From a virus, in the IMG/VR virus record IMGVR_UViG_3300037247_000873, positions 1-47,368 of that record: a DNA stretch of 47,368 nucleotides. One strand, written 5' to 3'. Below the pieces are notes generated by a model. It worked only from the letters and a program-made list of their open reading frames with translations. It made no database searches and was not told the DNA's origin. The position numbers and the translations under genes were made by a program. Positions 10,936 through 13,744 of this stretch are shown piece after piece. Within the stretch, counting starts at the first letter, position 1. Every line of letters starts with the position of its first letter.

Positions 10936-11271
10936 ATGGGCCAGGGCGGCGCAGGCAGGACAGTCTTTGGCCCAGCGGTCGTAGCGGCCAATCCGTACAG
11001 CCTCTTGGTGGGCGACCGGTGAGCCGTTCTGCGTTTCCCACGCAACAGCCCGCACATGCTCCTCACGTAGCGCCGTCACCAGTTCCTCGCGCTCCGCGTC
11101 CCGCTCGTCCAGCAGCACCTTGAGGCGCTCGGTGTCGCCCGCGATCACACCCAGGCGTGCTGCAAGGTCTAGTATGTCCACAGTTGCCAACGGCTCAAGG
11201 GCGGCCTGTTCGCTGATCGCCGCCACCAGCGCCATCGCGTCCGTGTCGGGCGGCACCTGTAACTCGCTCAT
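10918..11271 (-). CDS. Coiled-coil protein with terminal CxxC
   Basis: 117 residues from ATG at 11271 (ATGA overlap). Helical, with a coil at ERLKVLLDERDAEREELVTA and a C-terminal DCPACAALAHVKGAS. Unknown function. Confidence 0.7.
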   Translation of the reverse strand: MSELQVPPDTDAMALVAAISEQAALEPLATVDILDLAARLGVIAGDTERLKVLLDERDAEREELVTALREEHVRAVAWETQNGSPVAHQEAVRIGRYDRWAKDCPACAALAHVKGAS

Positions 11272-11468
11272 GGCTGCCTCAAGGTGGGGAGTGTTGCCCA
11301 GTGCGGTTGGCCTGGTGACTCGCCTGTCGTCTCGACGTGGCCGCAAGCCCCGCAGCACCAGCCGATAGCGTAGGTGTGGGCTTCCTGCCCCCGCTGTGGG
11401 TTAATCCTGGCCCACGCGCCCTTCAGGCGTTGCGGATGCTCGCAATTTGCTTCTTGCTCGTTGCTCAT
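11268..11468 (-). CDS. 66-aa zinc-knuckle protein
   Basis: ATG at 11468 is preceded by a strong AGGAGG. NCEHPQRL and WCCGACGHVE provide a plausible C/H..C..C site. It is the first gene after the structured RNA region, and unlike its neighbours it starts with its own full ribosome site and no overlap. Confidence 0.7.
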   Translation of the reverse strand: MSNEQEANCEHPQRLKGAWARINPQRGQEAHTYAIGWCCGACGHVETTGESPGQPHWATLPTLRQP

Positions 11469-11496
11469 GCTATCCTCCTGTCAGAGACATCCGTTC

Positions 11497-11949
11497 AGGC
11501 ACGGCCCCCGGCCACTCGGTCAGGGGCCGCGCTGTGCCAGCATCGTTCCGCTACCGCATCACTCCCTTCCTCTAGGTTGCCCATGCTTCGACATTCCCAG
11601 ACTCCCGCATGGGGTCCCGCGCCGGCATCCATGCCGGTCCTTGCTTCGCATCCGGTGCGAGCATCGCGGGGGAGGACACAGCGAACCGGACTGACCCGCA
11701 AGGTTTCCCCAGCGAGGACCCGCTGTGCCCTCCTCCGTGATGCGCCTGTGCGCTTCGCGGGGCGGAAGGGTGCCGGCGCCGAGCGGCTGGGTGGTGGCTC
11801 CCAGCGCTCTTGTGGAGTGGGACAGGCACCGCACCCCTCCGCTCCGAGAAGCCCATGAACACGGAAGCGCCGCGAAGTGAGACGTTGCTGGTGGCGTAGG
11901 CGTCCCTGGAACGGGACTGTGAGGAACTTCGCGGCGCGTCGGTACTCAT
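11497..11949 (-). ncRNA. Large structured RNA, HEARO/omega-RNA-like candidate
   Basis: On the minus strand the region begins at an ATGA (11949-11946) shared with the upstream stop and folds into consecutive long stems. A perfect 12-bp stem joins 11926-11937 with 11867-11878 and encloses a GTCCC/GGGAC hairpin. A 12-bp stem (11831-11842 with 11762-11773, one G-U) encloses a hairpin GAGCG-CTGGG/CCCAG-CGCTC (11781-11809). A 23-position stem with two mismatches joins 11720-11742 and 11671-11693. Then come CCGGCAT/ATGCCGG, CCCATGC/GCATGGG (11580-11613) and a terminal GGCCCC/GGGGCC stem near 11510-11530. Paired arms dominate; the competing 125-codon frame is implausible in composition. Placement after ATGA fits what is known of HEARO RNAs, now understood as IscB omega-RNAs, but no IscB gene is adjacent. 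Class assignment is a hypothesis; strong structure is seen directly. Confidence 0.65.
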
Positions 11950-12284
11950 GGACTAACTGCCTCCCGGCCCAGAAGCTCGGCATTGCGGCGGGCGAACTCC
12001 GCCTCGGCGGCGGGGTAAAGATCGGTTCGGCTTGGAGCCTTGCCCCGATGCTCAAGAAACACATGGGGAGGACTACAGCCACACGAAGGCTCCGCTAGTT
12101 GGCCTACCGCTACTCGAAAGCATTCTGCGGTCTGGTGGCGATGAGCTTTGGGGTAATCCTGATGTCTCAGCGAGGCCAGCCAAAGCACTTGCCCCTCCCA
12201 GTGAACGCACCGCAGCACCCACGGCGGACAGTCGCACTCGCGCTGGCCGTTGGGGCTGGGCTGGGCTAGGGGGCTACTTTCCAT
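11946..12284 (-). CDS. Small Cys-containing protein, second gene of operon
   Basis: 112 residues. ATG at 12284 overlaps the end of the repressor gene by 11 bases; AGGACGG lies upstream. ECDCPPWVLRCVHW and SCGCSPPH form a Cys-rich N-terminal region; the C-terminus is helical (AAEAEFARRNAELL). Its stop (ATGA) is immediately followed by the structured RNA. Unknown function. Confidence 0.65.
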   Translation of the reverse strand: MESSPLAQPSPNGQRECDCPPWVLRCVHWEGQVLWLASLRHQDYPKAHRHQTAECFRVAVGQLAEPSCGCSPPHVFLEHRGKAPSRTDLYPAAEAEFARRNAELLGREAVSP

Positions 12285-12435
12285 TCCGCCCGTCCTTCGT
12301 GTGCTCTTGCATGATGCGGATCATCTCCTCGATCACGCGGGCAGGCCGCATCTGTCGCTTCGCGGCCTCGATGTCAACCCAGCGCTTGAGGTCTGCGTCG
12401 ATTCGCCATCCAGCTTGTACTATCTTGATAGCCAT
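12274..12435 (-). CDS. Ribbon-helix-helix repressor, leaderless
   Basis: 53 residues from ATG at 12435. MAIKIVQAGWRID makes the DNA-contacting beta strand, DADLKRWVDIEAAKRQ helix A and RPARVIEEMIRIMQEH helix B, the layout of Arc/CopG-type repressors. There is no Shine-Dalgarno sequence. The predicted transcription start coincides with the A of the ATG. The promoter -10 lies inside a 16-bp inverted repeat that reaches the start codon, so the protein very probably represses its own operon. It is the first gene of the 12-kb small-gene operon. Confidence 0.85.
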   Translation of the reverse strand: MAIKIVQAGWRIDADLKRWVDIEAAKRQMRPARVIEEMIRIMQEHTKDGRNGK

Positions 12436-12450
12436 GTTACGACGGTAACA
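12435..12450. promoter_or_regulatory. Palindromic operator for the RHH repressor
   Basis: TGTTAC (12435-12440) and GTAACA (12445-12450) are inverted half-sites separated by 4 bases. On the minus strand the repeat contains the -10 box TACCGT and ends at the first base of the repressor gene. Binding there would block RNA polymerase. Two RHH dimers on adjacent half-sites would fit this spacing. Confidence 0.65.
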
Positions 12451-12470
12451 CAGCGGCAGGAGCCTGTCAA
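12442..12470 (-). promoter_or_regulatory. Promoter of the leftward small-gene operon
   Basis: TTGACA (12470-12465), 17 bp, TACCGT (12447-12442) on the minus strand. Expected start is about 12435, the first base of the RHH gene. Same family as the promoters at 32104, 32278, 40379, 45309 and 45522. Confidence 0.75.
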
Positions 12471-12523
12471 CCCCTCTAGCACGGAAATCGGTTTCATGCT
12501 TCCGCCATTGCGGATGGCGCAAA

Positions 12524-12553
12524 GTGCAGCGCCCCGTGTCCGGGGCGCTGCAC
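12524..12553 (-). terminator. Terminator of the late operon
   Basis: A perfect 13-bp, GC-rich stem (12524-12536 with 12541-12553) and a 4-base loop, followed on the minus strand by TTT. It lies downstream of the endolysin gene and just upstream of the next promoter. A second hairpin, GGTGGG/CCCACC (12587-12603), precedes it. The whole 12471-12738 interval holds no gene that I can support. Confidence 0.75.
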
Positions 12554-12667
12554 CTGGGCGGGTAGACATCTCTGCCCGTCCGAACAGGTGGGTTCGTCCC
12601 ACCCGTTAACCTGGGGTTGCCCGTCGGCCACACCCAAGGGGGCACCTCTATCCTACCACACTCAGCG

Positions 12668-12737
12668 TAGTGGCGCCGATCGCGTCGACCACCGTATCTG
12701 AATGCTTGCTCGCCAGATACGAAATTAGTGGCGCCGA
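12668..12737. repeat. Direct repeat flanking an inverted repeat
   Basis: TAGTGGCGCCGA occurs at 12668-12679 and 12726-12737. Between them GTATCTG (12694-12700) and CAGATAC (12714-12720) form an inverted pair. The unit lies directly after the endolysin stop. It could be a transcription-end structure, a binding site, or a scar of a small mobile sequence. Confidence 0.5.
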
Positions 12738-12738
12738 C

Positions 12739-13539
12739 CTAGCCCACCCGCACGCCGATGTAGGCCAGCCGACGCTTCAAGCTGTCCGGCACCTTCAGGC
12801 CGTGCTCGACGTAGGCGGCAAACTCACGGATGATCGTGGCGGCTGTGATGGTGGCTTCGTTTGGCATGTCGCCCTCCTTGTCCTTCACGATCTCGGCCCA
12901 CTCTGGATTCGTGGCGTGGGCCATGGTGTAGGCCTGATAGCCGGGGAGACCCCGGCGGTGAACCTCCGCGATCTGTTCAGCCACGGCGCGGGCACCGATT
13001 ACGTCATAGGTCTGGATGGTGGGCAGAACCGGCTTGCCGGCGAAGTCCTTACCATCCAGAGATGCGGCGAAAGCATCACGCACCGACTGCTGGAAGGTCA
13101 TCGGGTAGACCATGGGCATCCAGCCGGCCACATGATCGGCCAGCACCCGCTGGTAGGGCAGGTCCATCCGGCTACCTCGCGTATCGACCGAGGCGTACAG
13201 TTCGGACGTGGGCTGATGGCGGCGGAACTCGGCGACTAGGCGGCGCATCGGCTCCGGGCCCTGCGCCTCCCACTCGACCTCGGCGTTGATGACGGCGAAG
13301 CGTGCGCCCTCCCTTACGTTGTCCGCGAGACGGCCCGCCTCCACTTCGGGCTGGTCCGGGTAGACGTAGCGTTCCGTCGCCCAGGCAACCCCAGCCGCGC
13401 TAAAGGCAGCATGTGTCACTGGGTAGCCCCACTTCACGATGACGCCGGCGAGGTCCGCGTCCTTTGCCCTCTGAACACAGGAAGCGACAGGCACGGCCCC
13501 GTACTGATTCCACCAAGCCCAGCGGCCTACCGCTCGCAT
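12739..13539 (-). CDS. Putative endolysin, TIM-barrel glycosidase-like
   Basis: 266 residues from ATG at 13539, with AGGAGG 5 bases upstream. The pattern of alternating strands and helices (AGVIVKWGYPV, ARFAVINAEVEWEAQGPEP, SELYASVDTRGS, VAGWMPMVYPMTFQ, PVLPTIQTYD) resembles a TIM-barrel glycoside hydrolase; the acidic residues in NAEVEWE are candidate catalytic ones. The C-terminal 40 residues form a separate helical tail. It follows two small membrane proteins and ends the late operon, the usual place for a lysin. No signal peptide, so release would depend on a holin. The fold is inferred and not a firm family match. Confidence 0.6.
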   Translation of the reverse strand: MRAVGRWAWWNQYGAVPVASCVQRAKDADLAGVIVKWGYPVTHAAFSAAGVAWATERYVYPDQPEVEAGRLADNVREGARFAVINAEVEWEAQGPEPMRRLVAEFRRHQPTSELYASVDTRGSRMDLPYQRVLADHVAGWMPMVYPMTFQQSVRDAFAASLDGKDFAGKPVLPTIQTYDVIGARAVAEQIAEVHRRGLPGYQAYTMAHATNPEWAEIVKDKEGDMPNEATITAATIIREFAAYVEHGLKVPDSLKRRLAYIGVRVG

Positions 13540-13552
13540 CTCACCCTCCTTA

Positions 13553-13744
13553 TTACCTGGCATTCTTCCGTCCGTTGATCCCGTTTTCGCTGGCGTGGCC
13601 GAAGACGTAGCCGGCCGCCGTTGCGATCACCGCAATCAGCCACGTTGGAACCTCGGTGCCAGTGAACTCCAGCACCAACGCGCCCGCCAAGGCGGTGAGC
13701 GCGAAGCCGCCAGCGAAGATGATGCGTACCATCGCTTTCGTCAT
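13553..13744 (-). CDS. Holin-like membrane protein
   Basis: 63 residues from ATG at 13744 (GGAAGG upstream). Two hydrophobic segments, VRIIFAGGFALTALAGALVL and VPTWLIAVIATAAGYVFGH, are joined by a short acidic turn, and the C-terminus is charged (GRKNAR). Size, topology and position directly before the lysin gene are those of a class II holin. Confidence 0.65.
   Translation of the reverse strand: MTKAMVRIIFAGGFALTALAGALVLEFTGTEVPTWLIAVIATAAGYVFGHASENGINGRKNAR

Follow-up and report, generated by a model that had tools for sequence, protein, structure and literature searches.

The question raised by this locus is what lies between two cistrons at 11497-11951 on the minus strand of IMG/VR record IMGVR_UViG_3300037247_000873, the whole of which (47,368 bases) was our window and is called W in comparisons between phages. 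An earlier note on this DNA had proposed a large structured RNA of the HEARO/omega-RNA kind, interrupting an operon without other gaps. We found that the segment is non-coding and that it carries a multi-helix minus-strand structure kept by compensatory changes. As to its role, we give about an even chance to a large structured phage RNA that is new and modular and probably acts in trans after processing; here the structure is observed, and the function is what we infer.

Upon folding of 11480-11970, the minus strand reached -259 kcal/mol, where dinucleotide shuffles gave -227 ± 6 kcal/mol (z -5.1, with none of 100 shuffles as good), and the plus strand gave a z of -3.2. The segment thus has the excess stability whose lack the earlier note had named as a point against an RNA. 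When 200-base windows across the whole record were corrected for GC, the RNA region and 12401-12700 just upstream were the extremes. All three stems described earlier were located where they had been placed, and the minimum-energy prediction for the minus strand includes them or comes close to doing so. A 24-bp helix (H-A) is built around the 12-bp stem, the second stem contributes to a helix of 26 bp that is topped by an apical hairpin, and the third is an inverted repeat of 23 positions. The gap in the gene chain is likewise real, but the chain is not otherwise gapless, as there is at least one further gap, 12436-12738, which is also non-coding and structured.

A search with the W terminase yielded two sister phages, G005 and G006 (77 and 81% identity), with genomes that protein comparison showed to be collinear with W and of equal length. 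In both, a homologous segment occupies the equivalent place. Their minus-strand folds gave z values of -4.4 (G005) and -5.3 (G006), and their plus strands, at -0.9 and -1.8, were not far more stable than shuffles. We labelled the main stems of the minus-strand fold H-A to H-F; those placed in W are as follows.

11497..11951, minus strand: large structured non-coding RNA, its probable extent taken from helices H-A to H-E
11853..11951, minus strand: helix H-A, 24 bp (11951-11926 with 11878-11853), present in W and G005, lacking in G006
11752..11852, minus strand: helix H-B, 26 bp (11852-11825 with 11780-11752), from the three-phage alignment
11661..11743, minus strand: helix H-C, 23 positions (11743-11721 with 11683-11661), with double changes between W and G006
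11642..11663, minus strand: hairpin H-D1, TGCTCGCA/TGCGAAGCA, stem identical in G006
11571..11602, minus strand: helix H-F (TCTGGG/CCTAGA), one double change relative to G005
11499..11535, minus strand: 3' hairpin H-E, ACAGCGCGGCC...GGCCGTGC, motif invariant in all three phages

The core common to the three phages consists of H-B, H-F and the 3' hairpin H-E with its invariant ACAGCGCGGCC. H-B is capped by an apical hairpin (11809-11800/11791-11781), H-F is accompanied by a conserved GGGCAACCTAGAGGAA whose G006 copy is identical, and in H-E a single pair is doubly changed, from C-G to U-A, in G005. The outer helices are optional: G006 is without H-A, yet has extra hairpins. Where H-A is present, its loop contains CGCCACCAGC, with the same letters in G005. 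Two further pairings were considered. The long-range outer pair GCATCAC/GTGATGC of W was rejected as the homologue of a G006 pair, the 3' sides lying at non-homologous places, and it is excluded from the double-change totals below; loop-loop kissing via the GCCACCAGC motif is possible in G005 and inconsistent across the three phages, and is kept as a lead only. Inside the RNA, at 11549-11576 on the minus strand, a purine-rich GAGGA..GGG.GTG resembles a ribosome-binding site plus start codon; it is kept in all three phages and is followed by unrelated short frames.

The earlier claim that pairing is under selection was borne out by compensatory changes in both relatives. Across the three pairwise comparisons we counted 12, 7 and 6 double compensatory changes where 2.7, 1.4 and 1.4 were expected (p ≤1e-4), figures that come from three sequences, with limited power, and with the registers of H-A and H-C set by hand. 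On a sequence-only alignment of the three phages (A4), all 42 cells of the 14 H-B pairs were paired, five pairs had changed on both sides and none of 500 shuffles did as well; sliding the partner by 1-3 columns lowered pairing to 57-64%. RNAalifold on the same alignment found double changes in 10 of 30 pairs. For H-A, aligned gap-free from the conserved ATG, 7 of 24 columns were doubly changed yet paired between W and G005 (null mean 2.4), 21 columns were paired in both phages against 12.7 expected, and sliding the arms abolished pairing. H-C showed four double changes between W and G006, together with inserted base pairs and two A-C mismatches retained at the same positions. A search with a covariance model of H-B gave one minus-strand copy per phage, at 121, 92 and 83 bits in the very sequences that built it, with minus-strand scores far better than plus-strand ones, and no copy in five other phage records. 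Lastly, stem mismatches favoured G-T over A-C by 20 to 9 (p 0.03, by a strand-blind method), which argues that an RNA read from the minus strand is under selection, rather than DNA hairpins. The segment and its homologues therefore bear both marks of a conserved structured RNA, namely stability beyond that of shuffles and compensatory changes.

To place the RNA in its operon, we list the features around it.

12435..12553, minus strand: terminator-like hairpin (12553-12521), conserved element, promoter-like pair and palindrome, from the sequence and the relatives' alignment
12274..12435, minus strand: ribbon-helix-helix (RHH)-like gene, 53 aa, kept in G005 and G006
11946..12284, minus strand: gene for a Cys-rich small protein, 112 aa, directly upstream of the RNA; it has a homologue in G005 (41%) and is shortened in G006
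11268..11468, minus strand: next downstream gene, 66 aa, largely unlike the gene at that place in G005 and G006

The order of transcription-related elements and genes is thus a lysin-like gene, the terminator-like hairpin, the conserved element, the promoter-like pair (TTGACA at 12470-12465, TACCGT at 12447-12442), the RHH-like gene, the Cys-rich gene and the RNA. The RHH-like assignment is accompanied by a weak Pfam RHH match (E 0.009) in G006. Judging from the position of the pair, the transcript of the RHH-like gene would be leaderless. A palindrome, TGTTACCGTCGTAACA (12450-12435), overlaps the start of this gene. Each phage has a different palindrome over or near that start, reading TGTTACcgtcGTAACA in W, AGTACcgacGTACT in G005 (L025) and CCCTAGggtgccatgCTAGGG in G006 (L024), as though the regulator and its operator had changed in step. 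A consensus scanner recognised no promoter or terminator belonging to the RNA itself; the scanner missed the upstream pair too. Since neither signal was recognised, the RNA is probably part of the operon transcript, and its release from that transcript is an assumption. We propose that the RNA would be transcribed within the operon from the promoter-like site before the RHH-like gene, that processing at the strong hairpins might release or protect it, and that the folded RNA could then work in trans on a phage or host partner, either as a scaffold or as a decoy. A comparable mode of action has been put forward for GOLLD and ROOL, which are large ornate phage RNAs, although the segment is neither of them.

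The main rival, a serious possibility that we rank below the trans-acting RNA, is a leader-like, cis-acting operon RNA with control over elongation (by put-like processive antitermination), over processing or over mRNA stability. The location suits it well: the segment begins about 0.5 kb past a promoter-like site that itself follows a terminator-like hairpin, fills the gap between two cistrons exactly and stops some 20 bases short of the AGGAGG that forms the ribosome site of the next, 66-aa gene. The three genomes are collinear with apparently one-strand coding, signals of the RNA's own were not recognised, and the conserved RHH-like and Cys-rich neighbours and the early place in the operon fit a cis element too. 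The antitermination RNAs put (of phage HK022) and EAR are structured RNAs that likewise stand early in a long operon, so that position is compatible. However, they are far smaller than the segment, which at about 450 bases is well above their size and is without a match to either in the Rfam scan. The outer helices also vary freely, which sits poorly with a cis role. Moreover, W and its relatives have different genes downstream and yet keep the RNA, which suggests that its function is not tied to the downstream gene. Together with a core that is kept while helices around it are optional, this favours the trans-acting, released RNA over the cis element, only moderately.

An improbable alternative is that selection acts on the DNA, with the inverted repeats forming DNA hairpins at a replication origin, packaging site or recombination site. 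Double changes would equally preserve long inverted repeats, and the contigs of the three phages are cut differently, which suggests circular permutation and hence a packaging start somewhere. Against this, the fold advantage and the covariance-model scores are specific to the transcribed strand, G-U is preferred over A-C, motifs that are likely single-stranded are conserved, and GC skew shows no turn at the segment.

We consider it very improbable that the segment is a protein gene, read in frame 11572-11949 or 11495-12082, whose DNA is incidentally rich in inverted repeats. Open frames of 125-195 codons do run across the segment in W, and G005 and G006 have open frames there as well. However, the 125-codon frame, whose retention in homologues the earlier note had named as evidence against an RNA, is not conserved in the relatives: neither long frame of W matched G005 or G006 by tblastn at 1e-4, a search in which the flanking RHH-like and Cys-rich genes did match. 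The best-conserved block between W and G006, 46 bases long, sits in different frames, its first base falling at frame position 1 counted from the ATG in W and at 0 in G006, and compensatory changes are present. The codon score of the frames, -0.23 per codon, points the same way and is weak alone, as small neighbouring genes score low too.

Least probable of all is a HEARO/IscB omega-RNA, or some other guide RNA, that stands alone and is served by a nuclease from elsewhere, an idea prompted by the structure and by the ATGA at its 5' edge: the earlier label failed the covariance-model test, as the RF02033 search of the three phages came back empty even at E 10; the RRXRR/IscB-like domain had no match in them (G000, G005 and G006), in a search where the positive-control genomes were silent too; and the ATGA once read as a HEARO hallmark is an ordinary ATG/stop-codon overlap of the upstream gene, missing in G005, which has ATGTTCAGTGA. 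The segment shares with these RNAs a structured, non-coding nature, and at about 450 bases is about twice the length of the RF02033 model (211 positions).

The wider check against Rfam, suggested earlier for HEARO, GOLLD, ROOL and introns, produced no such match by cmscan. At gathering scores, Rfam 15 gave no match in the three genomes, and at permissive thresholds it gave scattered weak ones, mostly to microRNA models. A group I or II intron was rejected because an Rfam match is absent and the segment lies between two genes, not inside one. ROOL and GOLLD are phage-encoded RNAs of several hundred bases with elaborate structure, conserved and variable regions and unknown function, and they usually, though not obligatorily, lie near tRNA genes (PMC12286853). 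The segment resembles them in phage origin, size range, elaborate structure and its mix of conserved and variable regions, and here, as in other large RNAs, outer helices have been gained and lost around a core. It differs in length, with about 450 bases against 659 and over 800 for ROOL and GOLLD, in having no Rfam match, and in that no tRNA gene was detected in its three phages. A more specific proposal, which we offer tentatively, is that it represents a further ornate phage RNA class, unrelated to GOLLD, ROOL and OLE, acting as an RNA-based particle or scaffold of a phage-host complex and carried in a cassette with an RHH-like regulator and a Cys-rich protein.

Few classes of large structured RNA are known from phages, and their functions are poorly understood. 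An independent class whose core is compact and whose outer helices are dispensable would point to repeated evolution of such RNAs in phages, and the segment, if it is one, would offer a smaller object for work on structure and function. Here an RNA family invisible to a curated RNA library was found from reading one genome.

So far the family, which has no match in the libraries searched, is known from three genomes of one rare phage lineage. The window had no DNA match in INPHARED, and BLAST searches there from each of the three homologues returned chance fragments or nothing. A pattern scan for the 3' hairpin gave 40 matches in IMG/VR, of which the real ones were the two sister phages only, and none in GTDB; the apical-hairpin pattern found only G006 in IMG/VR. 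A search for wider kin through alignments of the terminase and a conserved structural protein led again only to G005 and G006, with none in GTDB. The RNA was also absent, by BLAST and covariance model, from the lysin-like relatives G001-G004 and the tail-fibre relative G007. The phage lineage itself is very isolated: most of the proteins tested have no PHROGs match, and kin by the conserved structural-type protein number two in IMG/VR and zero in GTDB.

Two observations concern the DNA just upstream of the RHH-like gene. The second structured non-coding gap, 12436-12738 on the minus strand, folds with a z of -7.2 into several hairpins; it contains the terminator-like GTGCAGCGCCCC/GGGGCGCTGCAC-TTT followed by the promoter-like pair, and the relatives have kept its portion GGCGGA...TGAAACCGATTTCCG.GCTAG. 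Beyond it, 12739-13563 on the minus strand encodes the lysin-like protein, so assigned by position only, which has relatives at 47-55% in four other phage contigs and not in the sister phages; gene exchange is the likely origin of this gene.
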